Source: Ianthella basta
Lineage: Eukaryota > Porifera > Demospongiae > Verongiida > Ianthellidae
Reading direction: 5' to 3'
Assembly (NCBI GenBank): GCA_964019415.1
Contig: OZ025872.1
Location: 3,212,004-3,276,003 of the forward strand
DNA length: 64,000 nt
Below are positions 1,624 to 64,000 of this stretch, in pieces. A model generated the notes under the pieces. That model was given only the letters and a program-made list of their open reading frames with translations, searched no databases and was not told the origin of the DNA. A program made the position numbers and the translations under genes. How positions within the stretch are numbered: position 1 is the stretch's first letter; every line of letters starts with the position of its first letter.

Positions 1624-2464
1624 TTGTTTGGAAACAATAGACACTTGCAAGCACAGAGTGAGCCCGAGACGGGCGACTTCGTACAGAGGACAGCAGCAAC
1701 CAAAAGAACACACAATGAAGGTAGGTGAGCAATATACGTAGGTGGTTGACAGTGGGAAATTATTATACGCAGACAGTCACCACTGCATGAGCAAACCTGG
1801 TGTATTAGTATCAAACGTACACAAGTTTTAGGATGCAAAATCAAGAGAAAGAATGCCAGTTAACAGCCACCATCCTCAACATGAATGTTGCGAGCAATTA
1901 TCTCAGAGAGACCCTACACATGAATGTTCCACCATTGTTGTATACACTACATGGCAGTGTGGTCACTGTCTTTACAACTGCACCAAACCTCCATATGAAA
2001 GGGACAGATAAACAGGTTTTGTGGAGATCCTCTGAGCGGCACAGATTATTATCTAGAACAAACAAACACACTAACATTGGTGCATTATAGTAAGAGTCAC
2101 TGAAGGCTTGGCAGAAGGAAGGTATGTATAGGGAGGACTGACTCACATGTTACACTGAGTACCCTATAGAGTAGTCTGACTACGTATAGGGAGGACTGAC
2201 TCACATGTTACACTGAGTACCCTATAGAGTAGTCTGACTACGTATAGGGAGGACTGACTCACATGTTACACTGAGTACCCTATAGAGTAGTCTGACTACG
2301 TATAGGGAGGACTGACTCACATGTTACACTGAGTACCGTATAGAGTAGTCTGACTATGTATAGGGAGGACTGACTCACATGTTACATTGAGTACCCTATA
2401 GAGTAGTCTGACTATGTATAGGGAGGACTGACTCACATGTTACATTGAGTACCCTATAGAGTAG
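1624..2464 (+). repeat. Macrosatellite spacer, right part only (copy A)
   Basis: From about 1624 the sequence matches the right-hand part of the full spacers at 26228-28101 and 50053-51932, running into the array that starts at 2465. The match starts with TTGTTTGGAAA (27460s in the full copy), then skips about 87 bp present in the full copies before continuing at GACACTTGCAAGC. It therefore has a truncated left edge plus an internal deletion. It carries six copies of the 58-bp repeat before the array. A five-base difference from the other copies near 1973 breaks any shared reading frame there. Confidence 0.8.
2126..2464 (+). repeat. 58-bp tandem repeat, about six copies
   Basis: Units start at 2126, 2184, 2242, 2300, 2358 and 2416, exactly 58 bp apart, each opening with GTATAGGGAGGACTGACTC. 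The last unit is cut short and passes straight into the 34-bp array. The same position holds one unit in the spacer at 28053 and two in the spacer at 51827. Confidence 0.95.
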
Positions 2465-5400
2465 TAAATAGGCAGTGTGCTAGAAGACACCACGTATTAA
2501 ATGGGCAGTGTGCTAGGGGGACATCACGTATTAAATGGGCAGTGTGCTAGGGGGACACCACGTATTAAATGGGCAGTGTTCTAGGGGGACACCACGTATG
2601 AAATGGGCAGTGTGCTAGGGGGACACCACGTATTAAATGGGGAGTGTGCTAGAGGGGACACTACGTATTAAATGGGCAGCGTACTAGAGGGACACCGCGT
2701 ATTAAATGGGCAATTTGCTAGGGGGACACCACGTATTAAATGGGGAGTGTGCTAGGGGGACACTACGTATTAAATGGGCAGTGTGCTAGGGGTACACTAC
2801 GTATTAAATGGGCAGTGTACTAGGGGGACACCACGTATTAAATGGGGAGTTTGCTAGGGGGACACTACTTATTAAATGGGCAGTGTACTAGGGGGACACC
2901 ACGTATTAAATGGGCAGTTTGCTAGGGGGACACCACGTATTAAATGGGGAGTGTGCTAGGGGGGCACCACGTATTAAATGGGCAGTGTCCTAGGGGGACA
3001 CTACGTAATAAATGGGCAGTGTCCTAGGGGGACACCATGTAATAAATGGGCAGTGTCCTAGGGGGACACTACGTATGAAATGGGCAGTGTGCTAGGGGTA
3101 CACTACGTATTAAATGGGCAGTGTACTAGGGGGACACCGCGTATTAAATGGGCAATTTGCTAGGGGGACAGCACGTGTTAAATGGGGAGTGTACTAGGGG
3201 GACACTACGTATTAAATGGGCAGTGGACTAGGGGGACACCGCGTATTAAATGGGGAGTATGCTAGGGGGACATTATGTATTAAATGGGCAGTGTACTAGG
3301 GGGGCACTACGTATTAAATGGGCAGTTTGCTAGGGGGACACCACGTATTAAATGGGGAGTTTGCTAGGGGGACACTACGTATTAAATGGGGAGTGTACTT
3401 GGGGGACACAACGTATTAAATGGGCAGTTTGCTAGGGGGACACTACGTATTAAATGGGGAGTGTGCTAGGGGGACACCACGTATTAAATGGGCAGTGTCC
3501 TAGGGGGACACCACGTATTAAATGGGCAGTGTCCTAGGGGGACACCACGTATTAAATGGGGAGTTTGCTAGGGGGACACCAAGTATTAAATGGGCAGTGT
3601 GCTAGGGGGACACCACGTATTAAATGGGGAGTTTGCTAGGGGGACACAACGTATTAAATGGGCAGTTTGCTAGGGGGACATCACGTATTAAATGGGGAGT
3701 GTGCTAGGGGGACACCACGTATTAAATGGGCAGTGTACTAGGGGGACACCACGTATTAAATGGAGAGTGTGCTAGGTGGACACCACGTATTAAATGGGCA
3801 GTGTCCTAGGGGGACAGCACGTATTAAATGGGCAGTTTGCTAGAGGGACACCACGTATTAAATGGGCAGTGTGCTAGGGGGACACCACGTATTAAATGGG
3901 CAGTTTGCTAGGGGGACACCACGTATTAAATGGGGAGTGTGCTAGGGGGACACCACGTATTAAATGGGCAGTGTCCTAGGGGGACACTACGTAATAAATG
4001 GGCAGTGTCCTAGGGGGACACCATGTAATAAATAGGCAGTGTCCTAGGGGGACACTACGTATGAAATGGGCAGTGTGCTAGGGGTACACTACGTATTAAA
4101 TGGGCAGTGTACTAGGGGGACACCGCGTATTAAATGGGCAATTTGCTAGGGGGACAGCACGTATTAAATGGGGAGTGTACTAGGGGGACACTACGTATTA
4201 AATGGGCAGTGTACTAGGGGGACACCGCGTATTAAATGGGGAGTGTGCTAGGGGGACACTATGTATTAAATGGGCAGTGTGCTAGGGGGACACCACGTAT
4301 TAAATGGGCAGTGTACTAGGGGGACACCACGTATTAAATGGGGAGTGTGCTAGGGGGACACCACGTATAAAATGGGCAGTGTCCTAGGGGGACACTACGT
4401 AATAAATGGGCAGTGTCCTAGGGGGACACCATGTAATAAATGGGCAGTGTCCTAGGGGGACACCGCGTATTAAATGGGCAGTGTGCTAGGGGTACACTAC
4501 GTATTAAATGGGCAGTGTACTAGGGGGACACCGCGTATTAAATGGGCAATTTGCTAGGGGGACAGCACGTATTAAATGGGGAGTGTACTAGGGGGACACT
4601 ACGTATTAAATGGGCAGTGGACTAGGGGGACACCGCGTATTAAATGGGGAGTATGCTAGGGGGACACTATGCATTAAATGGGCAGTGTGCTAGGGGGACA
4701 CCACGTATTAAATGGGCAGTGTACTAGGGGGACACCACGTATTAAATGGGCAGTGTACTAGGGGGACACCACGTATTAAATGGGGAGTTTGCTAGGGGGA
4801 CACTACGTATTAAATGGGCAGTGTACTTGGGGGACACAACGTATTAAATGGGCAGTTTGCTAGGGGGACACTACGTATTAAATGGGGAGTGTGCTAGGGG
4901 GACACCATGTATTAAATGGGTAGTGTCCTAGGGGGACACCACGTATTAAATGGGCAGTGTCCTAGGGGGACACCACGTATTAAATGGGGAGTTTGCTAGG
5001 GGGACACCAAGTATTAAATGGGCAGTGTGCTAGGGGGACACCACGTATTAAATGGGGAGTTTGCTAGGGGGACACAACGTATTAAATGGGCAGTTTGCTA
5101 GGGGGACACAACGTATTAAATGGGGAGTGTGCTAGGGGGACACCACGTATTAAATGGGCAGTGTACTAGGGGGACACCACGTATTAAATGGAGAGTGTGC
5201 TAGGTGGACACCACGTATTAAATGGGCAGTGTCCTAGGGGGACAGCACGTATTAAATGGGCAGTTTGCTAGGGGGACACCACGTATTAAATGGGCAGTGT
5301 GCTAGGGGGACACCACGTATTAAATGGGCAGTGTACTAGGGGGACACCACGTATTAAATGGGCAGTGTGCTAGGGGGACACTACGTATTAAATGGGCAGT

Positions 5401-8400
5401 GTTCTAGGGGGACACTACGTATTAAATGGGCAATGTACTAGGGGGACACCATGTATTAAATGGGGAGTGTGCTAGGGGGACACCACGTATTAAATGGGGA
5501 GTGTACTAGGGGGACACCACGTATTAAATGGGCAGTGTGCTAGGGGGACAGCACGTATTAAATGGGCAGTGTCCTAGGGGGACAGCACGTATTAAATGGG
5601 CAGTTTGCTAGGGGGACACCACGTATTAAATGGGCAGTGTGCTAGGGGGACACCACGTATTAAATGGGCAGTGTCCTAGGGGGACACCACGTATTAAATG
5701 GGCAGTGTGCTAGGGGGACACCACGTATTAAATGGGCAGTGTCCTAGGGGGACAGCACGTATTAAATGGGCAGTTTGCTAGGGGGACAGCACGTATTAAA
5801 TGGGCAGTTTGCTAGGGGGACAGCACGTATTAAATGGGCAGTGTCCTAGGGGGACAGCACGTATTAAATGGGCAGTTTGCTAGGGGGACACCACGTATTA
5901 AATGGGCAGTGTGCTAGGGGGACACTACGTATCAAATGGGGAGTGTACTAGGGGGACACCACGTATTAAATGGGCAGTGTGCTAGGGGGACACCACGTAT
6001 TAAATGGGCAGTGTTCTAGGGGGACACCACGTATTAAATGGGCAGTTTGCTAGGGGGACACCACGTATTAAATGGGCAGTGTGCTAGGGGGACACCACGT
6101 ATTAAATGGGCAGTGTACTAGGGGGACACCACGTATTAAATGGGCAGTGTGCTAGGGGGACACTACGTATTAAATGGGCAGTGTTCTAGGGGGACACTAC
6201 GTACTAGGGGGACACCATGTATTAAATGGGGAGTGTGCTAGGGGGACACTACGTATTAAATGGGGAGTGTACTAGGGGGACACCACGTATTAAATGGGCA
6301 GTGTGCTAGGGGGACACTACGTATTAAATGGGCAGTGTGCTAGAGGGACACCACGTATTAAATGGGCAGTGTTCTAGGGGGACACCATGTATGAAATGGA
6401 CAGTGTGCTAGGGGGACACTACGTATGAAATGGGGAGTGTGCTAGGGGGACACTACGTATTAAATGGGCAGTGTGCTAGGGGGACACCACGTATTAAATG
6501 GGGAGTGTACTAGGGGGACACCACGTATTAAATGGGGAGTGTGCTAGGGGGACACTACGTATTAAATGGGTAGTGTACTAGGGGGACACCACGTATTAAA
6601 TGGGCAGTGTGCTAGGGGGACACCACGTATTAAATGGGGAGTTTGCTAGGGGGACACTACGTATTAAATGGGCAGTGTGCTAGGGGGACACCACGTATTA
6701 AATGGGCAGTGCGCTAGGGGGACACCACGCATTAAATGGGCAGTGTGCTAGAGGGACACCACGTATTAAATGGGGAGTTTGCTAGGGGGACACTACGTAT
6801 TAAATGGGCAGTGTGCTAGTTGGACACCACGCATTAAATGGGCAGTGTGCTAGGGGGACACCACGTATTAAATGGGCAGTGTGCTAGAGGGACACCACGT
6901 ATTAAATGGGGAGTTTGCTAGGGGGACACTACGTATTAAATGGGCAGTGTACTAGGGGGACACCACGTATTAAATGGGCAGTGTACTAGGGGGACACCGC
7001 GTATTAAATGGGCAGTGTCCTAGGGGGACACCAAGTATTAAATGGGCTGTGTACTAGTGGGACACCACGTATTAAAAGGGGAGTGTGCTAGGGAGACACC
7101 ACGTATGAAATGGGCAGTGTGCTAGGGGGACACCACGTATTAAATGGGCAGTGTGCTAGGGGGACACCATATATTAAATGGGCAGTTTGCTAGGGGGACA
7201 CTACGTATTAAATGGGCAGTGTGCTAGGGGGACACCACGTATTAAAAGGGCAGTGTGCTAGGGGGACACCACATATTAAATGGGCAGTTTGCTAGGGGGA
7301 CACCACGTATTAAATGGGCAGTGTACTAGGGGGACACCACATATTAAATGGGCAGTTTGCTAGGGGGACACCACGTATTAAATGGGCAGTGTACTAGGGG
7401 GACACCACGTATTAAATGGGCAGTGTGCTAGGGGGACACCACGTATTAAATGGGCAGTGTTCCAGGGGGACAGCACGTATTAAATGGGCAGTTTGCTAGG
7501 GGGACACCACGTATTAAATGGACAGTGTGCTAGGGGGACACCACGTATTAAATGGGCAGTGTACTAGAAGGACACCACGTATTAAATGGGCAGTGTGCTA
7601 GGGGGACACTACGTATTAAATGGGCAGTGTTCTAGGGGGACACTACGTATTAAATGGGCAATGTACTAGGGGGACACCATGTATTAAATGGGGAGTGTGC
7701 TAGGGGGACACTACGTATTAAATGGGGAGTGTACTAGGGGGACACCACGTATTAAATGGGCAGTGTGCTATGTGGACACCACATATTAAATGGGCAGTGT
7801 CCTAGGGGGACAGCACGTATTAAATGGGCAGTTTGCTAGGGGGACACCACATATTAAATGGGCAGTGTGCTAGAGGGACACCACGTATTAAATGGGCAGT
7901 GTTCTAGGGGGACACCACGTATGAAATGGGCAGTGTGCTAGGGGGACACTACGTATTAAATGGGCAGTGTGCTAGGGGGACACCACGTATTAAATGGGGA
8001 GTGTGCTAGGGGGACACTACGTATTAAATGGGTAGTGTCCTAGGGGGACACCACGTATTAAATGGGCAGTGTGCTAGGGGGACACCACGTATTAAATGGG
8101 GAGTTTGCTAGGGGGACACTACGTATTAAATGGGCAGTGTGCTAGGGGGACACCACTTATTAAATGGGGAGTTTGCTAGGGGGACACTACGTATTAAATG
8201 GGCAGTGTGCTAGAGGGACACCACGTATTAAATGGGGAGTTTGCTAGGGGGTCACTACGTATTAAATGGGCAGTGTACTAGGCGGACACCACGTATTAAA
8301 TGGGCAGTGTACTAGGGGGACACCGCGTATTTAATGGGCAGTGTCCTAGGGGGACACCACGTATTAAATGGGCAGTGTACTAGGGGGACACCACGTATTA

Positions 8401-11400
8401 AATGGGGAGTGTGCTAGGGAGACACCACGTATTAAATGGGCAGTGTGCTAGGGGGACACCACGTATTAAATGGGCAGTGTGCTAGGGGGACACCACATAT
8501 TAAATGGGCAGTTTGCTAGGGGCACACCACGTATTAAATGGGCAGTGTACTAGGGGGACACCACGTATTAAATGGGCAGTTAGCTAGGGGGACACCACGT
8601 ATTAAATGGGCAGTGTACTAGGGGGACACTACGTATTAAATGGGCAGTGTGCTAGGGGGACACTACGTATTAAATGGGCAGTTTGCTAGGGGGACACCAC
8701 ATATTAAATGGGGAGTGTACTAGGGGGACACCACGTATTAAATGGGCAGTGTGCTAGGGGGACACCACGTATTAAATGGGCAGTGTACTAGGTGGACACC
8801 ACGTATTAAATGGGCAGTGTACTAGGGGGACACTACGTATTAAATGAGCAGTGTACTAGGGGGACACCACGTATTAAATGGGTAGTGTCCTAGGGGGACA
8901 CCACGTATTAAATGAGCAGTGTACTAGGGGGACACCACGTATTAAATGGGCAGTGTACTAGGGGGACACCACGTATTAAATGAGCAGTGTACTAGGGGGA
9001 CACCACGTATTAAATGGGCAGTGTGCTAGGGGGGACACTACGTATTAAATGGGCAGTGTGCTAGGGGGACACTACGTATTAAATGGGCAGTGTGCTAGGG
9101 GGGACACCGCGTAATAAATGGGCAGTTTGCTAGGGGGACACCACGTATTAAATGGGCAGTGTGCTAGGGGGACACCACGTATTAAATGGGGAGTGTGCTA
9201 GGGGGACACCACGTATTAAATGGGGAGTGTACTAGGGGGACACCACGTATTAAATGGGCAGTGTGCTAGGGGGACAGCACGTATTAAATGGGCAGTGTGC
9301 TAGGGGGACACCGCGTATTAAATGGGCAGTTTGCTAGGGGGACACCACGTATTAAATGGGCAGTGTGCTAGGGGGACACCGCGTATTAAATGGGCAGTGT
9401 GCTAGGGGGATACCACGTATTAAATGGGCAGTGTGCTAGGAGGACACTACGTATTAAATAGGCAGTGTACTAGGGGGACGCCACTTATTAAATGGGCAGT
9501 GTCCTAGGGGTCACCACGTATTAAATGGGCAGTGTCCTAGGGGGACACCACGTATTAAATGGGGAGTGTGCTAGGGGGACACCACGTATAAAATGGGCAG
9601 TTTGCTAGGGGGACACCACGTATTAAATGGGCAGTGTGCTAGGGGGACACTACGTATTAAATGGGCAGTGTGCTAGTGGGACACCACGTATTATATGGGC
9701 AGTGTGCTAGGGGGACACCACGTATTAAATGGGGAGTGTGCTAGGGGGACACCGCGTATTAAATGGGTAGTTTGCTAGGGGGACACCACGTATTAAATGG
9801 GAAGTGTGCTAGGGGGACACCGCGTATTCAATGGGCAGTTTGCTAGGGGGACACTACGTATTAAATGGGCAGTGTGCTAGGGGGACACCACGTACTTAAA
9901 TGGGCAGTGTACTAGGGGGACACCACGTATTAAATGGAGAGTTTGCTAGGGGGACACTACGTATTAAATGGGGAGTGTGCTAGGGGGACACCACGTATTA
10001 AATGGGCAGTGTGCTAGGGGGACACTACGTATTAAATGGGCAGTGTACTAGGGGGACACCACGTATTAAATGGGGAGTTTGCTAGGGGGACACTACGTAT
10101 TAAATGGGCAGTTTGCTAGGGGGACACCACGTATTAAATGGGGAGTGTCCTAGGGGGACACCACGTATTAAATGGGCAGTGTCCTAGGGGGACACCACGT
10201 ATTAAATGGGCAGTGTCCTAGGGGGACACTACGTATGAAATGGGCAGTGTGCTAGGGGGACACTACATATTAAATGGGCAGTGTACTAGGGGGACACCGC
10301 GTATTAAATGGGGAGTGTGCTAGGGGGACACTACGTATTAAATGGGCAGTGTACTAGGGGGACACCACGTATTAAATGGGCAGTTTGCTAGGGGGACACT
10401 ACGTATAAAATGGGGAGTGTGCTAGTGGGACACCACGTATTAAATGGGCAGTGTCCTAGGGTGACACCACGTATTAAATGGGCAGTGTCCTAGGGGGACA
10501 CCACGTATTAAATGGGCAGTGTCCTAGGGGGACACCACGTATTAAATGGGCAGTGTACTAGGGGGACACCACGTATTAAATGGGCAGTGTACTAGGGGGA
10601 CACCACGTATTAAATGGGGAGTGTGCTAGGGGGACACCGTGTATTAAATGGGCAGTGTACTAAGGGGAAACTACGTATTAAATGGGCAGTGTACTAGGGG
10701 GACACCACGTATTAAATGGGCAGTGTACTAGGGGGACACTACGTATTAAATGGGCAGTGTACTAGGGGGACACCACGTATTAAATGGGGAGTGTGCTAGG
10801 GGGACACCACGTATTAAATGGGCAGTTTTCTAGGGGGACACCACGTATTAAATGGGCAGTGTCCTAGGGAGAAACCACGTATTAAATGGGCAGTGTACTA
10901 GGTGGACACCACGTATTAAAAGGGCAGTTTGCTAGGGGGACACTACGTATTAAATGGGCAGTTTGCTAGGGGGACACCACGTATTAAATGGGCAGTGTCC
11001 TAGGTGGACACCACGTATTAAATGGGTAGTGTGCTAGGGGGACACTACGTATTAAATGGGCAGTGTACTTGGGGGACACCACGTATTAAATGGGCAGTTT
11101 GCTAGGGGGACACCAAGTATTAAATGGGCAGTGTCCTAGGGGGACACCACGTATTAAATGGGGAGTGTCCTAGGTGGACACCACGTATTAAATGGGCAGT
11201 GTCCTAGGGGGACACCACGTATTAAATGGGCAGTGTACTAGGGGGACACCACGTATTAAATGGGCAGTGTCCTAGGGGGACACTATGTATTAAATGGGCA
11301 GTGTCCTAGGGGGACACCACGTATTAAATGGGGAGTGTGCTAGGGGGACACCGTGTATTAAATGGGCAGTGTGCTAGGGGGAAACTACGTATTAAATGGG

Positions 11401-13373
11401 CAGTGTACTAGGGGGACACTACGTATTAAATGGGCAGTGTACTAGGGGGACACCACGTATTAAATGGGGAGTGTGCTAGGGGGACACCACGTATTAAATG
11501 GGCAGTTTTCTAGGGGGACACCACGTAATAAATGGGCAGTGTCCTAGGGGAGGACACCACGTATTAAATGGGCAGTGTCCTAGGGGAGGACACCACGTAT
11601 TAAATGGGCAGTGTCCTAGTGGGGACACCATGTATCAAATGGGCAGTGTACTAGGGGGACACTACGTATTAAATGGAGAGTGTACTAGGGGGACACCACG
11701 TATTAAATGGTTAGTGTACTAGGGGGACACCACGTATTAAATGGTTAGTGTACTAGGGGGACACCAGGTATTAAATGGGCAGTGTGCTAGTGGGGACACT
11801 ACGTATTAAATGGGCAGTGTCCTAGTGGGGACACCACGTATTAAATGGGCAGTGTCCTAGGGGAGGACACCACGTATTAAATGGGTAGTGTACTAGGGGG
11901 ACACCATGTATTAAATGGGCAGTGTCCTAGGGGGACACCATGTATTAAATGGGCAGTGTGCTAGGGGGATACCACGTATTAAATGGAGAGTGTGCTAGGG
12001 GGACACCACGTATTAAATGGGCAGTGTCCTAGGGGGACACCACGTATTAAATGGGCAGTTTGCTAGGGGGACACCACGTATTAAATGAGCAGTGTCCTAG
12101 GGGGACACCACGTATTAAAGGGGCAGTGTCCTAGGGGGACACCACGTATTAAATGGGCAGTGTCCTAGGGGGACACCACGTATTAAAGGGGCAGTGTCTT
12201 AGGGGGACACAACGTATTAAATGGGCAGTGTCCTAGGGGGACACCACGTATTAAATGGGCAGTGTCCTAGGTGGACACCACGTATTAAATGAGTAGTGTG
12301 CTAGGGGGACACCGTGTATTAAATGGGCAGTGTACTAGGGGGACACCACGTATTAAATGGGCAGTGTACTAGGGGGACACTACGTATTAAATGGGCAGTT
12401 TGCTAGGGGGACACCACGTATTAAATGGGCAGTGTCCTAGGGGGACATCACTTATTAAATGGGCAGTGTACTAGGGGACACCACGTATTAAATGGGTAGT
12501 GTCCTAGGGGGACATCACTTATTAAATGGGCAGTGTACTAGGGGACACCACGTATTAAATGGGCAGTGTCCTAGGTGGACACCACGTATTAAATGAGTAG
12601 TGTGCTAGGGGGACACCGTGTATTAAATGGGCAGTGTACTAGGGGGACACCACGTATTAAATGGGCAGTGTACTAGGGGGACACTACGTATTAAATGGGC
12701 AGTTTGCTAGGGGGACACCACGTATTAAATGGGCAGTGTCCTAGGGGGACATCACTTATTAAATGGGCAGTGTACTAGGGGGACACCACGTATTAAATGG
12801 GCAGTGTCCTAGGGGGACATCACTTATTAAATGGGCAGTGTACTAGGGGACACCACGTATTAAAGGGGCAGTGTCCTAGGGGGACATCACGTATTAAATG
12901 GGCAGTGTGCTAGGGGGACACCACTTATTAAATGGGCAGTGTCCTAGGGGGACATCACGTATTAAATGGGCAGTTTGCTAGGGGGACACCACGTATTAAA
13001 GGGGCAGTGTACTAGGGGGACATCACGTATTAAATGGGTAGTGTGCTAGGGGGACACCACTTATTAAATGGGCAGTGTCCTAGGGGGACACCACGTATTA
13101 AATGGGCAGTGTACTAGGGGGACACTACGTATTAAATGGTAGTGTCCTAGGGGGACACCACGTATTAAATGGTAGTGTCCTAAGGGGACATCATGTATTA
13201 AATGGACAGTGTACTAGGGGGACACCACGTATTAAATTGGCAGTGTACTAGGTGGACACCACGTATTAAATGGACAGTGTACTAGGGGGACACCACGTAT
13301 TAAATTGGCAGTGTGCTAGGGGGACACCACGTATTAAATTGGCAGTGTACTAGGTGGACACCACATATTAAAT
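2465..13373 (+). repeat. 34-bp minisatellite array 1, about 320 copies
   Basis: Uninterrupted head-to-tail copies of a 34-bp unit built from TATTAAATGGGCAGTG followed by a variable GTGCTAG-type step and GGGGACACCACG. Frequent variants are C, G, A or T before CTAGG, TTTGC for GTGTGC, GGGGAG for GGGCAG, CACTACG for CACCACG and CTTATT for CGTATT. A few units gain or lose one to four bases, such as the GGGGAGGACACC forms near 11550. Because 34 is not a multiple of three, open frames inside it (for example 11498-11722) arise by chance. The left edge follows the 58-bp repeats; the right edge passes into spacer copy B. Confidence 0.98.
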
Positions 13374-13376
13374 GGT

Positions 13377-14466
<1,090 letters not shown>

Positions 14467-14489
14467 AAACCTACTTTCAGCTACCAGCC

Positions 14490-14490
<1 letters not shown>

Positions 14491-14539
<49 letters not shown>
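14491..14539. repeat. (AC)n at the edge of the gene block
   Basis: About 49 bp of AC lies just inside the point where the spacer match ends. It sits between the spacer and the last SLC9B-like exon, so the left junction of the gene island falls beside a simple repeat. Confidence 0.95.
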
Positions 14540-14540
<1 letters not shown>

Positions 14541-14610
14541 CTCACCATCCTTGTTTATTCAATCTGCTGACACTTCTCATTCATCTCAGCAATCTGTAGA
14601 GGATACCCAC

Positions 14611-14757: not shown

Positions 14758-14803
14758 CTGCAGGGAGGGGAGTGAGGATGTGTCATCACTCTGTAAGCTG
14801 TAA

Positions 14804-14806
14804 GCA

Positions 14807-14866
<60 letters not shown>

Positions 14867-14947
14867 GCATACACGCACGCACACACACATGCATACACGC
14901 ACACACACACACGCGTGCACGCACACGCGCACGCACGCACACGCACA

Positions 14948-50331: not shown

Positions 50332-51098
50332 CAACTTAGTACACACTAGAGTTGAAAATAACAAAGGTAAGGAGAGTGGGAGAGCACAGACAGGGTCAGG
50401 ACAACTGCCCCAAACAGAACATGGCTGTAACAGGCTATGAATACACTTGATAGACACCACTCAATTCCCAAGAGGTTACAAACAAACTTCAAAGAGTCCA
50501 CTCTTAGATAAAGTTTACCAAACACTTGACCACATTTGTCACCTCTGTGCAGAGCTGAGATCAAAGGCACTGCCTCCTATCCACCATGCACACTGTGACA
50601 AGAGTCCTTGTGCAGGCAAGTAAAGAAGGATGAGGGGACATGCTGAGAGACAAGGATCATGACAGGCTTTAGCTCCACTCAAAGAGGATCTGATGGAAGC
50701 TCTTCTGTGTGAAAACTATGACCATACACAAGTGGTAGCCACTTTCAGTGAGTCAGTAACTTCTTTAAAGTGCTCTCGGAGAACTGCATTTCAACTTCAC
50801 CCATGTCATGGCACATTCTGTAATGTATGCATGTCACAACTGTTCAAAGCAGGGGACTTTTGTAACCTAGGATACGGGAAGGTGTTTGTAAGAGTTGCAA
50901 CATCTCCCATTGGTCTACTCTGAGGTAATGAGGAACAGCAGGTTTGGAAGGTACGTAAGATTGTGCAACCATTGTAATCTGATTGGTGCATGTGACTGTT
51001 GAGTGAGGACATCACGTCCATCATGTCTACTGTAGAGCTGTTACTTGTATACAGGCAAGGAATTTTAGTACACAGTAAAATGTATAAACCGACTACAC

Positions 51099-51539
51099 TC
51101 ACATGCAAACCCACTGACAGGTGGCAGCTTCTCCTTCACTGTGCTGCATATTACTCTCAAGGAAGAATAGCTGACCATCGGACAAATTGGGGACAATGTG
51201 AGAATAATATGACTTTTTCCCTAGCAGCTCGATTTGTTTGGAAATCTTAGCATCTACTGCTGCGGTAATGGCCATCTTCATTAAACTATCATTAAATGTG
51301 CCAACCAGATTTGTGTGGAACTTCAGAAATAAAAGACACTTGCAAGCATAGAGTGAGCCCGAGACAGGTGACTTCGTACAGAGGACAGCAGCGACCAAAA
51401 GAACACACAATGAAGGTAGGTGAGCAATATACGTAGGTGGTTGACAGTGGGAAATTACTATACACAGACAGTCACCACTGCATGAGCAAACCTGGTGTAT
51501 TAGTATCAAACGTACACAAGTTTTAGGATGCAAACTCAA
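51099..51539 (-). other. Exon-like open stretch in spacer copy D, hypothetical
   Basis: Second copy of the 146-codon open stretch described for spacer C, with the same acceptor (TTCTGAAG) and the same GTGAGT donor. It differs at four residues (L/F, C/F, A/V, A/G in D versus C), and silent changes are also present. The mix gives no clear sign of selection on the protein. No recognised family. Confidence 0.3.
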
Positions 51540-51932
51540 GAGAAAGAATGCCAGTTAACAGCCACCATCCTCAACATGAATGTTGTGAGCAATTATCTCA
51601 GAGAGACCCTATACATGAATGTTCCACCATTGTTGTATACACTACATGGCAGTGTGGTCACTGTCTTGACTATACAACTGCACCAAACCTCCATATGAAA
51701 GGGACAGATTAACGGGTTATGTGGAGATCCTCTGAGCGGCACAGATTATTATCTAGAACAAACAAACACACTAACATTGGTGCATTATAGTAAGACTCAC
51801 TGAAGGCTTGGCAGAAGGAAGGTATGTATAGGGAGGGCTGACTCACATGTTACACTGAGTACCCTATAGAGTAGTCTGACTACGTATAGGGAGGACTGAC
51901 TCACATGTTACATTGAGTACCCTATAGAGTAG

Positions 51933-54900
51933 TAAATAGGCAGTGTGCTAGGGGACACCACGTATTAAATGGGCAGTGTGCTAGGGGGACATCACGTATT
52001 AAATGGGCAGTGTGCTAGGTGGACACCACGTATTAAATGGGCAGTGTTCTAGGGGGACACCACGTATGATATGGGCAGTTTGCTAGGGGGACACCACGTA
52101 TTAAATGGGGAGTGTGCTAGGGGGACACTACGTATTAAATGGGCAGCGTACTACAGGGACACCGCGTATTAAATGGGCAATTTGCTAGGGGGACACCACG
52201 TATTAAATGGGGAGTGTGCTAGGGGGACACTACGTATTAAATGGGCAGTGTGCTAGGGGTACACTACGTATTAAATGGGCAGTGTACTAGGGGGACACCA
52301 CGTATTAAATGGGGAGTTTGCTAGGGGGACACCACGTATTAAGTGGGCAGTTTGCTAGGGGGACACCACGTATTAAATGGGCAGTGTGCTGGGGGGACAC
52401 TACGTATTAAATGGGCAGTGTCCTAGGGGGACACTACGTAATAAATGGGCAGTGTCCTAGGGGGACACCACGTAATAAATGGGCAGTGTCCTAGGGGGAC
52501 ACTACGTATGAAATGGGCAGTGTGCTAGGGGTACACTACGTATTAAATGGGCAGTGTACTAGGGGGACACCGCGTATTAAATGGGCAATTTGCTAGGGGG
52601 ACACCACGTATTAAATGGGGAGTGTACTAGGGGGACACTACGTATTAAATGGGCAGTGGACTAGGGGGACACCGCGTATTAAAAGGGGAGTGTGCTAGGG
52701 GGACACTATGTATTAAATGGGCAGTGTGCTAGGGGGACACCACGTATTAAATGGGCAGTGTACTAGGGGGACACCACGTATTAAATGGGCAGTGTACTAG
52801 GGGGACACCACGTATTAAATGGGCAGTGTCCTAGGGGGACACTACGTATTAAATGGGCAGTGTACTAGGGGGACACCACGTATTAAATGGGGAGTTTGCT
52901 AGGGGGACACTACGTATCAAATGGGCAGTGTACTTGGGGGACACAACGTATTAAATGGGCAGTTTGCTAGGGGGACACTACGTATTAAATGGGGAGTGTG
53001 CTAGGGGGACACCACGTATTAAATGGGGAGTGTACTAGGGGGACACTACGTATTAAATGGGCAGTGGACTAGGGGGACACTACGTATTAAATGGGGAGTG
53101 TACTAGGGGGACACTACGTATTAAATGGGCAGTGGACTAGGGGGACACCGCGTATTAAATGGGGAGTGTGCTAGGGGGACACTATGTATTAAATGGGCAG
53201 TGTGCTAGGGGGACACCACGTATTAAATGGGCAGTGTACTAGGGGGACACCACGTATTAAATAGGCAGTGTACTAGGGGGACACCACGTATTAAATGGGC
53301 AGTGTCCTAGGGGGACACTACGTATTAAATGGGCAGTGTACTAGGGGGACACCACGTATTAAATGGGCAGTTTGCTAGGGGGACACCACGTATTAAATGG
53401 GAAGTGTGCTAGGGGGACACCGCGTATTCAATGGGCAATTTGCTAGGGGGACACTACGTATTAAATGGGCAGTGTGCTAGGGGGACACCACGTACTTAAA
53501 TGGGCAGTGTACTAGGGGGACACCACGTATTAAATGGAGAGTTTGCTAGGGGGACACTACGTATTAAATGGGGAGTGTGCTAGGGGGACACCACGTATTA
53601 AATGGGCCGTGTGCTAGGGGGACACTACGTATTAAATGGGCAGTGTACTAGGGGGACACCAGGTATTAAATGGGGAGTTTGCTAGGGGGACACTACATAT
53701 TAAATGGGCAGTGTACTAGGGGACACTACGTATTAAATGGGCAGTTTGCTAGGGGGAAACCACGTATTAAATGGGGAGTGTCCTAGGGGGACACTACGTA
53801 TTAAATGAGCAGTGTCCAAGGGGGACACCACGTATTAAATGGGCAGTGTCCTAGGGGGACACTACATATTAAATGGGCAGTGTACTAGGAGGACACCGCG
53901 TATTAAATGGGGAGTGTGCTAGGGGGACACTACGTATTAAATGGGCAGTGTACTAGGGGGACACCACGTATTAAATGGGCAGTTTGCTAGGGGGACACTA
54001 CGTATTAAATGAGGAGTGTGCTAGTGGGACACCACGTATTAAATGGGCAGTGTCCTAGGGTGACACCACGTATTAAATGGGCAGTGTCCTAAGGGGACAC
54101 CACTTATTAAATGGGCAGTGTGCTAGGGGGACACCACGTATTAAATGGGGAGTGTGCTAGGGGGACACCACGTATTAAATGGGCAGTGTACTAGGTGGAC
54201 ACCACGTATTAAATGGGCAGTGTGCTAGGTGGACACCACGTATTAAATGGGCAGTGTGCTAGGTGGACACCACGTATTAAATGGGCAGTGTACTAGGGGG
54301 ACACCATGTATTAAATGGGCAGTGTGCTAGGGGGACACTACGTATTAAATGGGCAGTGTACTAGGGGGACACCACGTATTAAATGGGCAGTGTGCTAGGG
54401 GGACACTACGTATGAAATGGGCAGTGTTCTAGGGGGACACCACGTATTAAATTGGCAGTGTGCTAGGGGGACACTACGTATGAAATGGGCAGTGTGCTAG
54501 AAGGACACTACGTATTAAATGGGCAGTGTGCTAGGGGACACTACGTATTAAATGGGCAGTGTACTAGGGAGACACCGCGTATTAAATGGGCAATTTGCTA
54601 CGGGGACACCACGTATTAAATGGGCAGTGTACTAGGGGGACACCACGTATTAAATGGGGAGTTTGCTAGGGGGACACTACGTATTAAATGGGCAGTGTAC
54701 TAGGGGGACACCACGTATTAAATGGGCAGTTTGCTAGGGGGACACCACGTATTAAATGGCGAGTGTACTAGGGGGACACTACGTATTAAATAGGCAGTGT
54801 GCTAGGGGGACACTACGTATTAAAAGGGCAGTGTACTAGGGGGACACCACGTATTAAATGGGGAGTTTGCTAGGGGGACACTACGTATTAAATGGGCAGT

Positions 54901-57900
54901 GTACTAGGGGGACACCACGTATTAAATGGGCAGTGTCCTAGGTGGACACCACGTATTAAATGGGCAGTGTCGTAGGGGGACACCACGTAATAAATGGGTA
55001 GTGTGCTAGGGGGACACCACGTATTAAATGGGTATTGTACTAGGTGGACACTACGTATTAAATGGGCAGTGTACTAGGGAGACACCACGTATTAAATGGG
55101 CAGTGTACTAGGTGGACACTACGCATGAAATGGGCAGTGTACTAGGGGGACACCACGTATTAAAAGGGCAGTGTGCTAGGGGGACACCACGTATTAAATG
55201 GGCAGTGTTCTAGGGGGACACCACGTATTAAATGGGTAGTGTCCTAGGGGGACACCATGTATTAAATGGGCAGTGTTCCAGGTGGACACCACGTATTAAA
55301 TGGGCAGTGTGCTAGGGGGACATCACATATTAAATAGACAGTTTGCTAGGGGGACACCACGTATTAAATGGGCAGTATACTAGGGGGACACCACGCATTA
55401 AATGGGCAGTGTACTAGGTGGACACTACGTATGAAATGGGCAGTGTACTAGGGGGACACCACGTATTAAATGGGCAGTGTGCTAGGGGGACACCACGTAT
55501 TAAATGGGCAGTGTTCTAGGGGGACACCACGTATTAAATGGGTAGTGTCCTAGGGGGACACCATGTATTAAATGGGCAGTGTTCTAGGCGGACACCACGT
55601 ATTAAATGGGTAGTGTCCTAGGGGGACACCATGTATTAAATGGGCAGTGTCCTAGGGGGACACCACGTATTAAATAGACAGTGTACTAGGGGGACACTAC
55701 GTATTAAATGGGCAGTGTACTGGGGAGACACTACGTATTAAATGGGCAGTGTGCTAGGGGTACACTACGTATTAAATGGGCAGTGTACTAGGGGGACACC
55801 ACGTATTAAATGGGGAGTTTGCTAGGGGGACACCACGTATTAAGTGGGCAGTTTGCTAGGGGGACACCACGTATTAAATGGGCAGTGTGCTGGGGGAACA
55901 CTACGTATTAAATGGGCAGTGTCCTAGGGGGACACTACGTAATAAATGGGCAGTGTCCTAGGGGGACACCACGTAATAAATGGGCAGTGTCCTAGGGGGA
56001 CACTACGTATGAAATGGGCAGTGTGCTAGGGGTACACTACGTATTAAATGGGGAGTGTACTAGGGGGACACCGCATATTAAATGGGCAATTTGCTAGGGG
56101 GACACCACGTATTAAATGGGGAGTGTACTAGGGGGACACTACGTATTAAATGGGCAGTGGACTAAGGGGACACCGCGTATTAAAAGGGGAGTGTGCTAGG
56201 GGGACACTATGTATTAAATGGGCAGTGTGCTAGGGGGACACCACGTATTAAATGGGCAGTGTACTAGGGAGACACCACGTATTAAATGGGCAGTGTACTA
56301 GGGGGACACCACGTATTAAATGGGCAGTGTCCTAGGGGGACACTACGTATTAAATGGGCAGTGTACTAGGGGGACACCACGTATTAAATGGGGAGTTTGC
56401 TAGGGGGACACTACGTATCAAATGGGAAGTGTACTTGGGGGACACAACGTATTAAATGGGCAGTTTGCTAGGGGGACACTACGTATTAAATGGGGAGTGT
56501 GCTAGGGGGACACAACGTATTAAATGGGGAGTGTACTAGGGGGACACTACGTATTAAATGATCAGTGGACTAGGGGGACACTACGTATTAAATGGGGAGT
56601 GTACTAGGGGGACACTACGTATTAAATGGGCAGTGGACTAGGGGGACACCGCGTATTAAATGGGGAGTGTGCTAGGGGGACACTATGTATTAAATGGGCA
56701 GTGTGCTAGGGGGACACCACGTATTAAATGGGCAGTGTACTAGGGGGACACCACGTATTAAATAGGCAGTGTACTAGGGGGACACCACGTATTAAATGGG
56801 CAGTGTCCTAGAGGGACACTACATATTAAATGGGCAGTGTACTAGGGGGACACCACGTATTAAATGGGGAGTTTGCTAGGGGGACACTACGTATCAAATG
56901 GGCAGTGTACTTGGGGGACACCACGTATTAAATGGGCAGTTTGCTAGGGGGACACTACGTATTAAATGGGCAGTGTCCTAGGGGGACACCACGTATTAAA
57001 TGGGGAGTTTGCTAGGGGGACACCACGTATTAAATGGGTATTGTACTAGGTGGACACTACGTATTAAATGGGCAGTGTACTAGGGAGACACCACGTATTA
57101 AATGGGCAGTGTACTAGGTGGACACTACGCATGAAATGGGCAGTGTACTAGGGGGACACCACGTATTAAATGGGCAGTGTGCTAGGGGGACACCACGTAT
57201 TAAATGGGCAGTGTTCTAGGGGGACACCACGTATTAAATGAGTAGTGTCCTAGGGGGACACCATGTATTAAATGGGCAGTGTTCCAGGTGGACACCACGT
57301 ATTAAATGGGCAGTGTGCTAGGGGGACATCACATATTAAATAGACAGTGTGCTAGGGGGACACCACGTATTAAATGGGCAGTATACTAGGGGGACACCAC
57401 GTATTAAATGGGCAGTGTACTAGGTGGACACTACGTATGAAATGGGCAGTGTACTAGGGGGACACCACGTATTAAATGGGCAGTGTGCTAGGGGGACACC
57501 ACGTATAAAATGGGCAGTGTTCTAGGGGGACACCACGTATTAAATGGGTAGTGTCCTAGGGGGACACCATGTATTAAATGGGCAGTGTTCTAGGCGGACA
57601 CCACGTATTAAATGGGTAGTGTCCTAGGGGGACACCATGTATTAAATGGGCAGTGTCCTAGGGGGACACCACGTATTAAATAGACAGTGTACTAGGGGGA
57701 CACTACGTATTAAATGGGCAGTGTACTGGGGAGACACCACGTATTAAATAGGCAGTGTACTGGGGAGACACTACGTATTAAATGGGCAGTGTACTAGGGG
57801 GACACCACGTATTAAATGGGGAGTTTGCTAGGGGGACACCACGTATTAAGTGGGCAGTTTGCTAGGGGGACACCACGTATTAAATGGGCAGTGTGCTGGG

Positions 57901-60900
57901 GGGACACTACGTATTAAATGGGCAGTGTCCTAGGGGGACACTACGTAATAAATGGGCAGTGTCCTAGGGGGACACCACGTAATAAATGGGCAGTGTCCTA
58001 GGGGGACACTACGTATGAAATGGGCAGTGTGCTAGGGATACACTACGTATTAAATGGGGAGTGTACTAGGGGGACACCGCGTATTAAATGGGCAATTTGC
58101 TAGGGGGACACCACGTATTAAATGGGGAGTGTACTAGGGGGACACTACGTATTAAATGGGCAGTGGACTAGGGGGACACCGCGTATTAAAAGGGGAGTGT
58201 GCTAGGGGGACACTATGTATTAAATGGGCAGTGTGCTAGGGGGACACCACGTATTAAATGGGCAGTGTACTAGGGGGACACCACGTATTAAATGGGCAGT
58301 GTACTAGGGGGACACCACGTATTAAATGGGCAGTGTCCTAGAGGGACACGACGTATTAAATGGGCAGTGTACTAGGGGGACACCACGTATTAAATGGGGA
58401 GTTTGCTAGGGGGACACTACGTATCAAATGGGCAGTGTACTTGGGGGACACAACGTATTAAATGGGCAGTTTGCTAGGGGGACACTACGTATTAAATGGG
58501 GAGTGTGCTAGGGGGACACCACGTATTAAATGGGGAGTGTACTAGGGGGACACTACGTATTAAAAGAGCAGTGGACTAGGGGGACACTACGTATTAAATG
58601 GGGAGTGTACTAGGGGGACAATACGTATTAAATGGGCAGTGGACTAGGGGGACACCGCGTATTAAATGGGGAGTGTGCTAGGGGGACACTATGTATTAAA
58701 TGGGCAGTGTGCTAGGGGGACACCACGTATTAAATGGGCAGTGTACTAGGGGGACACCACGTATTAAATAGGCAGTGTACTAGGGGGACACCACGTATTA
58801 AATGGGCAGTGTCCTAGGGGGACACTACGTATTAAATGGGCAGTGTACTAGGGGGACACCACGTATTAAATGGGCAGTTTGCTAGGGGGACACCACGTAT
58901 TAAATGGGAAGTGTGCTAGGGGGACACCGCGTATTCAATGGGCAATTTGCTAGGGGGACACTACGTATTAAATGGGCAGTGTGCTAGGGGGACACCACGC
59001 ACTTAAATGGGCAGTGTACTAGGGGGACACCACGTATTAAATGGAGAGTTTGCTAGGGGGACACTACGTATTAAATGGGGAGTGTGCTAGGGGGACACCA
59101 CGTATTAAATGGGCCGTGTGCTAGGGGGACACTACGTATTAAATGGGCAGTGTACTAGGGGGACACCAGGTATTAAATGGGGAGTTTGCTAGGGGGACAC
59201 TACATATTAAATGGGCAGTGTACTAGGGGACACTACGTATTAAATGGGCAGTTTGCTAGGGGGAAACCACGTATTAAATGGGGAGTGTCCTAGGGGGACA
59301 CTACGTATTAAATGAGCAGTGTCCAAGGGGGACACCACGTATTAAATGGGCAGTGTCCTAGGGGGACACTACATATTAAATGGGCAGTGTACTAGGGGGA
59401 CACCGCGTATTAAATGGGGAGTGTGCTAGGGGGACACTACGTATTCAATGGGCAGTGTACTAGGGGGACACCACGTATTAAATGGGCAGTTTGCTAGGGG
59501 GACACTACGTATTAAATGAGGAGTGTGCTAGTGGGACACCACGTATTAAATGGGCAGTGTCCTAGGGTGACACCACGTATTAAATGGGCAGTGTCCTAAG
59601 GGGACACCACTTATTAAATGGGCAGTGTGCTAGGGGGACACCCCGTATTAAATGGGGAGTGTGCTAGGGGGACACCACGTATTAAATGGGCAGTGTACTA
59701 GGTGGACACCACGTATTAAATGGGCAGTGTGCTAGGTGGACACCACGTATTAAATGGGCAGTGTGCTAGGTGGACACCACGTATTAAATGGGCAGTGTAC
59801 TAGGGGGACACCATGTATTAAATGGGCAGTGTGCTAGGGGGACACTACGTATTAAATGGGCAGTGTACTAGGGGGACACCACGTATTAAATGGGCAGTGT
59901 GCTAGGGGGACACTACGTATGAAATGGGCAGTGTTCTAGGGGGACACCACGTATTAAATTGGCAGTGTGCTAGGGGGACACTACGTATGAAATGGGCAGT
60001 GTGCTAGAAGGACACTACGTATTAAATGAGTAGTGTCCTAGGGGGACACCATGTATTAAATGGGCAGTGTTCCAGGTGGACACCACGTATTAAATGGGCA
60101 GTGTGCTAGGGGGACATCACATATTAAATAGACAGTGTGCTAGGGGGACACCACGTATTAAATGGGCAGTATACTAGGGGGACACCACGTATTAAATGGG
60201 CAGTGTACTAGGTGGACACTACGTATGAAATGGGCAGTGTACTAGGGGGACACCACGTATTAAATGGGCAGTGTGCTAGGGGGACACCACGTATTAAATG
60301 GGCAGTGTTCTAGGGGGACACCACGTATTAAATGGGTAGTGTCCTAGGGGGACACCATGTATTAAATGGGCAGTGTTCTAGGGGACACTACGTATTAAAT
60401 GGGCAGTGTACTAGGGAGACACCGCGTATTAAATGGGCAATTTGCTACGGGGACACCACGTATTAAATGGGCAGTGTACTAGGGGGACACCACGTATTAA
60501 ATGAGGAGTTTGCTAGGGGGACACTACGTATTAAATGGGCAGTGTACTAGGGGGACACCACGTATTAAATGGGCAGTTTGCTAGGGGGACACCACGTATT
60601 AAATGGCGAGTGTACTAGGGGGACACTACGTATTAAATAGGCAGTGTGCTAGGGGGACACTACGTATTTAAAGGGCAGTGTACTAGGGGGACACCACGTA
60701 TTAAATGGGGAGTTTGCTAGGGGGACACTACGTATTAAATGGGCAGTGTACTAGGGGGACACCACGTATTAAATGGGCAGTGTCCTAGGTGGACACCACG
60801 TATTAAATGGGCAGTGTCCTAGGTGGACACCACGTATTAAATGGGCAGTGTCGTAGGGGGACACCACGTAATAAATGGGTAGTGTGCTAGGGGGACACCA

Positions 60901-63900
60901 CGTATTAAATGGGTATTGTACTAGGTGGACACTACGTATTAAATGGGCAGTGTACTAGGGAGACACCACGTATTAAATGGGCAGTGTACTAGGTGGACAC
61001 TACGCATGAAATGGGCAGTGTACTAGGGGGACACCACGTATTAAATGGGCAGTGTGCTAGGGGGACACCACGTATTAAATGGGCAGTGTTCTAGGGGGAC
61101 ACCACGTATTAAATGGGTAGTGTCCTAGGGGGACACCATGTATTAAATGGGCAGTGTTCCAGGTGGACACCACGTATTAAATGGGCAGTGTGCTAGGGGG
61201 ACATCACATATTAAATAGACAGTGTGCTAGGGGGACACCACGTATTAAATGGGCAGTATACTAGGGGGACACCACGCATTTAATGGGCAGTGTACTAGGT
61301 GGACACTACGTATGAAATGGGCAGTGTACTAGGGGGACACCACGTATTAAATGGGCAGTGTGCTAGGGGGACACCACGTATTAAATGGGCAGTGTTCTAG
61401 GGGGACACCACGTATTAAATGGGTAGTGTCCTAGGGGGACACCATGTATTAAATGGGCAGTGTTCTAGGCGGACACCACGTATTAAATGGGTAGTGTCCT
61501 AGGGGGACACCATGTATTAAATGGGCAGTGTCCTAGGGGGACACCACGTATTAAATAGACAGTGTACTAGGGGGACACTACGTATTAAATGGGCAGTGTA
61601 CTGGGGAGACACCACGTATTAAATAGGCAGTGTACTGGGGAGACACTACGTATTAAATGGGCAGTGTGCTAGGGGTACACTACGTATTAAATGGGCAGTG
61701 TACTAGGGGGACACCACGTATTAAATGGGGAGTTTGCTAGGGGGACACCACGTATTAAGTGGGCAGTTTGCTAGGGGGACACCACGTATTTAATGGGTAG
61801 TGTGCTGGGGGGACACTACGTATTAAATGGGCAGTGTCCTAGGGGGACACTACGTAATAAATGGGCAGTGTCCTAGGGGGACACCACGTAATAAATGGGC
61901 AGTGTCCTAGGGGGACACTACGTATGAAATGGGCAGTGTGCTAGGGGTACACTACGTATTAAATGGGGAGTGTACTAGGGGGACACCGCATATTAAATGG
62001 GCAATTTGCTAGGGGGACACCACGTATTAAATGGGGAGTGTACTAGGGGGACACTACGTATTAAATGGGCAGTGGACTAGGGGGACACCGCGTATTAAAA
62101 GGGGAGTGTGCTAGGGGGACACTATGTATTAAATGGGCAGTGTGCTAGGGGGATACCACGTATTAAATGGGCAGTGTACTAGGGAGACACCACGTATTAA
62201 ATGGGCAGTGTACTAGGGGGACACCACGTATTAAATGGGCAGTGTCCTAGGGGGACACTACGTATTAAATGGGCAGTGTACTAGGGGGACACCACGTATT
62301 AAATGGGGAGTTTGCTAGGGGGACACTACGTATCAAATGGGCAGTGTACTTGGGGGACACAACGTATTAAATGGGCAGTTTGCTAGGGGGACACTACGTA
62401 TTAAATGGGGAGTGTGCTAGGGGGACACAACGTATTAAATGGGGAGTGTACAAGGGGGACACTACGTATTAAATGATCAGTGGACTAGGGGGACACTACG
62501 TATTAAATGGGGAGTGTACTAGGGGGACACTACGTATTAAATGGGCAGTGGACTAGGGGGACACCGCGTATTAAATGGGGAGTGTGCTAGGAGGACACTA
62601 TGTATTAAATGGGCAGTGTGCTAGGGGGACACCACGTATTAAATGGGCAGTGTACTAGGGGGACACCACGTATTAAATAGGCAGTGTACTAGAGGGACAC
62701 CACGTATTAAATGGGCAGTGTACTAGAGGGACACTACATATTAAATGGGCAGTGTACTAGGGGGACACCACGTATTAAATGGGCAGTATACTAGGGGGAC
62801 ACCACGCATTTAATGGGCAGTGTACTAGGTGGACACTACGTATGAAATGGGCAGTGTACTAGGGGGACACCACGTATTAAATGGGCAGTGTGCTAGGGGG
62901 ACACCACGTATTAAATGGGCAGTGTTCTAGGGGGACACCACGTATTAAATGGGTAGTGTCCTAGGGGGACACCATGTATTAAATGGGCAGTGTTCTAGGC
63001 GGACACCACGTATTAAATGGGTAGTGTCCTAGGGGGACACCATGTATTAAATGGGCAGTGTCCTAGGGGGACACCACGTATTAAATAGACAGTGTACTAG
63101 GGGGACACTACGTATTAAATGGGCAGTGTACTGGGGAGACACCACGTATTAAATAGGCAGTGTACTGGGGAGACACTACGTATTAAATGGGCAGTGTGCT
63201 AGGGGTACACTACGTATTAAATGGGCAGTGTACTAGGGGGACACCACGTATTAAATGGGGAGTTTGCTAGGGGGACACCACGTATTAAGTGGGCAGTTTG
63301 CTAGGGGGACACCACGTATTAAATGGGTAGTGTGCTGGGGGGACACTACGTATTAAATGGGCAGTGTCCTAGGGGGACACTACGTAATAAATGGGCAGTG
63401 TCCTAGGGGGACACCACGTAATAAATGGGCAGTGTCCTAGGGGGACACTACGTATGAAATGGGCAGTGTGCTAGGGGTACACTACGTATTAAATGGGGAG
63501 TGTACTAGGGGGACACCGCATATTAAATGGGCAATTTGCTAGGGGGACACCACGTATTAAATGGGGAGTGTACTAGGGGGACACTACGTATTAAATGGGC
63601 AGTGGACTAGGGGGACACCGCGTATTAAAAGGGGAGTGTGCTAGGGGGACACTATGTATTAAATGGGCAGTGTGCTAGGGGGATACCACGTATTAAATGG
63701 GCAGTGTACTAGGGAGACACCACGTATTAAATGGGCAGTGTACTAGGGGGACACCACGTATTAAATGGGCAGTGTCCTAGGGGGACACTACGTATTAAAT
63801 GGGCAGTGTACTAGGGGGACACCACGTATTAAATGGGGAGTTTGCTAGGGGGACACTACGTATCAAATGGGCAGTGTACTTGGGGGACACAACGTATTAA

Positions 63901-64000
63901 ATGGGCAGTTTGCTAGGGGGACACTACGTATTAAATGGGGAGTGTGCTAGGGGGACACAACGTATTAAATGGGGAGTGTACAAGGGGGACACTACGTATT
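51933..64000 (+). repeat. 34-bp minisatellite array 3, at least 355 copies, runs off the window
   Basis: Same unit and orientation. Its first units match those of array 1 (AAATAGGCAGTGTGCTAG, then an ACATCACG unit), whereas array 2 begins differently. Strong higher-order structure: blocks marked by GCAGTATACTAGG recur at 55380, 57386, 60174, 61261 and 62791, at distances of 59, 82, about 32 and 45 units. The last two blocks form a nearly identical 1,530-bp tandem pair. The array continues past the window end. Confidence 0.98.

Follow-up and report, generated by a model that had tools for sequence, protein, structure and literature searches.

The 32-bp satellite pCht (StSat) of great-ape subterminal caps is irregularly broken by spacers made of genic segmental duplications; excerpts of the report propose these spacers as sites of ectopic exchange and describe different histories for their two halves, with P < 0.001 in three species (PMC12758386). 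In excerpts of a second report, human chromosomes 13, 18, and 21 carry tandem arrays of long terminal repeats (LTRs) within mosaic segmental duplications, and the DXZ4 macrosatellite consists of 17 units of 3.0 kb with >99% identity (PMC2588610). Here, we analyzed a 64,000-nucleotide stretch of the genome of the sponge Ianthella basta, hereafter the window, in which long arrays of a 34-bp unit are separated by duplicated spacers. The window corresponds to positions 3212004 to 3276003 of C5, an 11.29-Mb contig in an assembly of 209 Mb and 96 contigs. We conclude, at a probability of about 0.75, that this locus is a 34-bp satellite caught in a mosaic cluster of segmental duplications.

The ape caps are the closest system that we have seen. 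The two share a unit of ~32 to 34 bp, long arrays, and irregular spacers of genic segmental duplication (PMC12758386, in the parts excerpted), and the sponge locus is likewise a short-unit satellite irregularly interrupted by recurrent duplicated spacers. Unlike in apes, the arrays here are interstitial and their spacer modules lie mainly on one chromosome-scale contig (PMC12758386, same parts); they are not subterminal on many chromosomes, and the left part of the spacer (L) and strong matches to its right part (R) occur on C5 and contig C78 only. There are ~ten modules here, against ~413 to 700 spacers per ape haplotype, and the spacers measure ~2 kb or are mixed segments of 15 to 39 kb, against 32 to 34 kb in apes; the unit sequences, compared by eye, are unrelated (PMC12758386, same parts). 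The plan appears to be one already known from ape chromosome ends, of which this locus would be another example, at interstitial places.

The two other systems are more distant. Like the arrays described here, the human LTR arrays lie within mosaic duplications related to one another, and each array was rearranged in its own way after dispersal, but their unit is ~3.5 kb long, transposon derived, and pericentromeric; DXZ4 shares the large repeated units spanning tens of kilobases, whereas the large unit is not regular here (PMC2588610, in the parts excerpted). Among the sponge, ankyrin, and CKAP5 literature of one library, screened by title and the start of the abstract, we found no fitting published case of a minisatellite combined with duplications, and three strings of the 34-bp unit had no occurrence in the literature searched, again one library only. 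The locus adds a case outside the apes, in a genome of 209 Mb, in which segmental duplications and a satellite with a short unit have grown together. Its cluster is compact, with eight modules in ~265 kb, small enough that each junction could be read and the sequence of events reconstructed.

Three arrays of one unit and a mosaic spacer

Tandem Repeats Finder placed the 34-bp unit, GTATTAAATGGGCAGTGTGCTAGGGGGACACCAC, in two runs, 2461 to 13375 and 28098 to the end of the window, the second being broken at 50052 to 51928 by a spacer. With ≤8 mismatches allowed, the window contains 1290 units on the forward strand and 0 on the reverse strand, and one base-shuffled copy of the window contains 0. 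A preliminary description, made from the window sequence alone, had reported three arrays of about 11, 22, and at least 12 kb that share one unit in one orientation; we confirm this and find that the third runs to 32.8 kb. The spacer that separates the second and third arrays (1.88 kb) is a mosaic of L, a middle part (M), and R, followed by 58-bp repeats (r58) that lead into the next array. Arrays and spacer parts in the window are as follows:

2461..13375, plus strand, 34-bp array 1 (A1), 10.9 kb
28098..50051, plus strand, 34-bp array 2 (A2), ~21.9 kb
51929..64000, plus strand, 34-bp array 3 (A3), cut by the window end; the true end is at C5:3296720, giving 32.8 kb in all
50052..51928, plus strand, full spacer joining array 2 to array 3: L at 50052-51128 (~1.08 kb), M at 51129-51325 (~197 bp), R at 51326-51830 (~0.5 kb), then r58
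26229..28097, plus strand, full L-M-R spacer before array 2, array-free on its left side
1631..2125, plus strand, R half-spacer before array 1, 96% identical to 51326-51933, with the segment P2 (720-1630) on its left
2126..2465, plus strand, r58 between R and array 1, 5.9 copies, 98% match
13376..14488, plus strand, L half-spacer after array 1, 94% identical to 50052-51128
26050..26228, plus strand, X, the left neighbor of L in five of the seven full spacers
51129..51325, minus strand, M, a piece (~190 bp) of a 743-codon exon of an ankyrin-repeat gene family

According to the preliminary description, the spacer recurs at the same place relative to the arrays. Within the window, R does always lead into an array, but at 26229 it is X, not an array, that precedes L. 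The recurrence itself holds for the whole spacer at 26229 to 28097, whereas around array 1 the spacer is split into its R half on one side and its L half on the other. Moreover, 11.7 kb at 14489 to 26228, missing from that description, break the supposed spacer-plus-array repeat.

Seven full L-M-R spacers were found, of which two have the order array-spacer-array and five have X as their left neighbor. Over these seven, the correlation of L and R distances was r = −0.20 (permutation, 0.65), that of M and R was 0.14 (0.31), and that of L and M was 0.61 (0.056), which at n = 7 does no more than hint that exchange breakpoints fall within spacers. Ape spacers are similar in that their halves differ in history (PMC12758386, in the parts excerpted). 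The extent of r58 differs among loci. The P2-R junction of the window recurs at locus L023, and P2 also lies to the left of R at C5:3390485.

M appears to be a broken fragment of a multicopy ankyrin gene family. It is ~81% identical to L048:1319-1505, which falls within a 743-amino-acid open frame (L048:144-2375, minus strand); upstream of this exon, the same locus has ankyrin-repeat coding sequence (Pfam Ank_2, 2.2e-14). M has at least 40 matches (40 of 45 candidates scored), 7 at 97 to 100% identity and 33 at 76 to 83%. Because M starts and stops within the 743-codon exon, it would be a broken piece rather than a whole exon, and the idea of a whole exon inside a giant intron was rejected. 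Searches returned no Pfam family for M (E up to 10) and neither Pfam families nor PDB matches for the 743-amino-acid exon (E up to 0.01 each). We do not claim a Roc/COR-type NTPase label for this exon, which came from motifs seen by eye. A relative of M, at 84%, lies at L044:1520-1924 (C5:7.836 Mb), where r58 begins within ~10 bases and both R and the 34-bp array are absent from the 1.3 kb examined beyond r58; this locus perhaps represents the state preceding array arrival or that following array loss.

Distribution of the modules in the assembly

The search of the assembly found L at 18 places (17 on C5 and 1 on C78; 94 to 100% identity) and strong matches to R at 15 places (14 on C5 and 1 on C78; 91 to 100%), and the spacer is not single copy. 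Five weak R matches (76 to 79%) are located on C16, C52, and C75. On C5, L and R occupy 3.21 to 3.48 Mb in forward orientation and 1.90 to 2.35 Mb in reverse orientation, and R alone is found at 7.97 Mb, forward. Such positions along an 11.29-Mb contig, together with the copy on C78, speak against a centromeric or subtelomeric satellite, which the preliminary description had considered. C78 is 11,107 bases long and has the order N10-X-L-M-R-r58-array; it is perhaps an unplaced copy or the other haplotype of the C5 cluster.

With ≤3 mismatches, the left (r58-array) junction was found 10 times on C5 (8 forward, 2 reverse) and once on C78, 11 places in total, and the right (array-L) junction at 7 places; backward control patterns gave 0 in both searches. 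Within the forward cluster at C5:3.21-3.48 Mb, eight array starts pair with eight ends, comprising seven array-L junctions and a variant end at locus L011. The resulting array lengths are ~10.9, 21.9, 32.8, 2.8, 14.8, 14.8, 18.2, and 11.7 kb, together ~128 of 265 kb; arrays 1 to 3 were read whole, and the other five were deduced from their edges and search matches. The seven gaps between these arrays measure ~14.7, 1.9, 36.6, 2.1, 38.1, 39.4, and 3.5 kb. Two of the seven correspond to the ~2-kb spacer; four others span 14.7 to 39.4 kb, and the remaining one is 3.5 kb long. With two of seven full spacers lying between arrays and two of seven gaps of spacer size, the regular macrosatellite first described gives way to a satellite embedded in mosaic segmental duplications.

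Across the assembly, 10,065 unit matches were found with ≤3 mismatches (5285 forward and 4780 reverse; backward control, 0), and 1116 of the 10,065 fall in the window. Extrapolated by proportion from this share, the assembly would contain roughly 0.4 Mb of the unit.

Junctions point to duplication and shuffling of shared blocks

Junctions were mapped with dinucleotide runs masked and matches of ≤35 bases dropped. There are at least six junction types, in which the same parts appear in differing orders:

P2-R-r58-array: window, L023
array-L-N1: window, L014, L016
N10-X-L-M-R-array: window, L013, L015, L019, L024
array-L-M-R-array: window, L010
array-short piece-X-L: L011
array-truncated L-CKAP5 segment: L047

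Blocks L, R, X, N1, N2, N6, N7, and N10 are 88 to 100% identical across several loci, and the same block order extends over >2 kb in L014 and L016. These are kilobase-size, nontransposon blocks present in multiple copies at ~90% or greater identity, as segmental duplications are defined. Among the options raised in the preliminary description, the one supported is a repeat spread via segmental duplication, with both blocks and gene pieces multicopy on C5.

Arrays with shared flanks descend from one R-array-L module, because their left and right junctions are shared; the module is found in several neighborhoods and in both orientations, and the interiors of arrays show local amplification. The array-L boundary is identical at most loci. 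Variants include 13 additional bases at L016, a small duplication of X sequence at L011, and an end in other sequence at L058. We infer that the boundary and junction variants are the traces expected of nonallelic recombination and template switching. In the mechanism that we propose, mosaic segmental duplication would carry the locally amplifying satellite along; duplication and shuffling would proceed via nonallelic recombination and template switching between repeats, and array length would shift via unequal exchange or replication slippage.

Turnover inside arrays and tests for function

Homogenization was assessed with units of 30 to 40 bases in blocks of ten 34-base units (340 bp), every fifth block serving as a query. 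A partner with ≥99% identity was present within A3 for 57% of its 145 blocks and in A1, A2, or 4.2 kb of an array on contig C3 for 0%. The fractions of blocks with a ≥97% partner were as follows:

A1 (44 blocks): 0.34 within the array, 0.00 to 0.18 in the others
A2 (51 blocks): 0.22 within the array, 0.00 to 0.10 in the others
A3 (145 blocks): 0.71 within the array, 0.00 to 0.06 in the others
C3 array (19 blocks, 4.2 kb): 0.16 within the array, 0.00 to 0.05 in the others

Likeness within arrays exceeds likeness between them, the pattern that defines local homogenization. Within A3, the longest exact repeat measures 977 bp, and the longest repeats include some offset by 1530, 2892, and 5507 bases; A2 and A3 have no exact 150-bp stretch in common. 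We also compared the ends of arrays, using nine of the eleven array starts and seven array ends. The first 300 bp are 98 to 100% identical among A1, A3, L019, and L024 and 99% identical between L015 and L023; other pairs share 87 to 96%.

As many head-to-tail copies of a short noncoding unit, the arrays are satellite or minisatellite DNA. In array 1, the array for which frames were counted, the longest open frame among all six is just 74 codons. The window contains 0 Rfam matches at the gathering threshold and 0 tRNA genes, and two consensus units show nothing unusual on either strand when folded as single-stranded DNA (z = −0.13 and 1.08). The open-frame, Rfam, tRNA, and DNA-folding tests were all unremarkable and gave no sign of a new function; a coding or RNA function for the arrays was rejected. 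The arrays are most likely by-products without a selected function that at most supply homology keeping their neighborhood unstable.

Arrays outside C5 and alternative explanations

Among the unit matches listed (10 of 68 exact window matches), arrays outside C5 are found on contigs C2 and C3. At C2:5.142 Mb (L054:2514-3055), an insert of ~540 bp contains six 34-bp units and C5-cluster sequence, with the units adjoining 333 bp that are 98% like C5:2319805-2320135; L, R, and r58 are absent from the edges of this array. The insert looks like a C5-cluster fragment copied into C2, where the surrounding sequence, judged by eye, is presumably Penelope-type reverse transcriptase-like. A transposon beside the C2 array was rejected, since the 333-bp neighbor is C5-cluster sequence. 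A ~120-bp part of that neighbor has at least 42 matches (40 of 100 candidates scored; 77 to 81%) on C1, C5, C16, and C21, and no 34-bp array was found in 18 diverged loci related to the neighbor (L059 to L076). A conserved piece of ~120 to 140 bp, at 77 to 81%, occurs many times along C5 (0.39 to 8.0 Mb) and also on C16, C21, and C1 (L062 to L068, L070 to L073, L075, and L076).

On C3, among the matches listed (130 in all), the unit spans 2992495 to 3010538, where the first six units are followed by ~1 kb of different sequence. Further units lie at 3.08 Mb, where the 2 kb that we read consist entirely of array, and ~26 units with variants of their own form an isolated array at 12.99 Mb (L078:728-1610). 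The 34-bp unit is a multilocus satellite; L-M-R spacers were found in the C5 duplications and on C78 only.

Several observations weigh against a satellite dispersed by mosaic duplication of the C5 module. L, R, and r58 are missing from both C3 arrays at which we read the edges, and module duplication does not account for the arrays on that contig. The array at 12.99 Mb opens with an odd first unit, GTAAATAGGCAGTGT, as do arrays 1 and 3; in 104 kb of C5, this sequence is found just as the first unit of those two arrays, and there are 0 occurrences in the other C2 and C3 array pieces checked. Plain copying of the C5 module would not predict such a common, defined left end; either the 12.99-Mb array derives from the outermost left part of an array of the C5 type, or a defined left terminus is a property of the arrays. 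Arrays 4 to 8 and the inverted cluster are known just from edges or search matches, the comparison of L with R rests on seven spacers, and the within-array excess of A1 and A2 is weaker than that of A3. Finally, seven arrays compared over their last 300 bp are 87 to 95% alike, and random internal pairs reach 0.93 (20 internal A1/A2 pairs with a mean of 0.76, a rough yardstick in which ungapped pairs are set against gapped test pairs). Because the likeness of these ends is no better than that of the best random internal pairs, the right ends show no recent copying. Together, the left-end, right-end, and interior identities indicate that some left edges were copied recently along with R and that interiors have turned over locally.

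The arrays might also act as a recombination engine, in which tens of kilobases of in-phase homology flanking duplicated genes drive copy-number change and shuffling of the ankyrin-repeat family and of its neighbors. Such a role, which would resemble that proposed for the satellite arrays and spacers of ape chromosome ends, here at interstitial sites, strikes us as rather doubtful. It is unlikely, too, that the array is a mobile element or the inner part of one, with a defined left end, that moves as an array and later expands in place. The fixed order R-r58-array-L on C5 would suit such an element, as would the small isolated arrays elsewhere (6 units on C2 and 26 units at C3:12.99 Mb), the first unit GTAAATAGGCAGTGT common to arrays 1 and 3 and the C3:12.99-Mb array, and a CCACTGC motif seen by eye near both edges of the latter, at unequal distances and possibly by chance. 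Yet L and strong R are confined to C5 and C78, the three C2 and C3 arrays share no L, R, or r58 flank, right ends differ, and in five of the seven full spacers it is X, without an array, that lies to the left of L.

We consider very unlikely a true macrosatellite, in which spacer and array form a single unit that recurs head to tail and evolves as whole units are exchanged unequally. The array-L-M-R-array order at 50052 to 51928 does recur in the same order and orientation near C5:3336190-3338240 (L010), but five of seven full spacers are entered from X rather than from an array, four of seven cluster gaps are 14.7 to 39.4 kb, and array lengths range from ~2.8 to 32.8 kb; no large unit forms a regular head-to-tail array. 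That the arrays constitute a C5 satellite of centromeric or other chromosome-structural kind is highly improbable: in the places seen, much of the extrapolated genome-wide total of ~0.4 Mb lies on C5, but the arrays there occupy separate regions, one in the opposite orientation, are interleaved with gene pieces, and have counterparts on C3 at 2.99 to 3.01, 3.08, and 12.99 Mb.

Gene pieces between arrays 1 and 2 and other repeats

The 11.7 kb between arrays 1 and 2 (14489 to 26228) contain parts of two genes, CKAP5-like and exchanger-9B2-like, both on the minus strand:

14489..15327, minus strand, final portion of a sodium/hydrogen exchanger 9B2-like gene, with stretches at 14555-14782 and 15001-15327
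15553..24460, minus strand, part of a CKAP5/ch-TOG-like gene with introns; the named-protein match is for 24017-24460 only

The exchanger-like part matches PDB entries 7p1i (2.5e-7) and 7b4l (2.4e-8). Its stretch at 14555 to 14782 hits Pfam PF00999 at an E value of 0.0047, below the family cutoff, and the stretch at 15001 to 15327 has no Pfam family. There are five copies of the exchanger exon on C5, all five stop-free, and two relatives beyond C5 (48 to 49%), on C7 and C8.

In the second gene, 24017 to 24460 matches CKAP5 chain 4qmi at 1e-16 (PDB), and we take the remainder of 15553 to 24460 to be CKAP5-like as well. Five stretches of the CKAP5-like part searched against Pfam have 0 families, and 15553 to 16104 has 0 PDB matches. 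The CKAP5 segment at 21750 to 22640 occurs at 16 places (19 rows) on C5 at 82 to 100% identity, with one relative outside C5, on C13 (68 to 80%). Also within the CKAP5-like stretch, positions 17619 to 18885 are occupied by 34 copies of a 37-bp unit with a 99% match, and many long CA/GT runs, of up to 108 copies, are located between 13527 and 26557. At the left edge of the window, positions 1 to 600 form a dispersed repeat for which at least 41 matches, 87 to 100% identical, are spread over many contigs (40 of 150 candidates scored).

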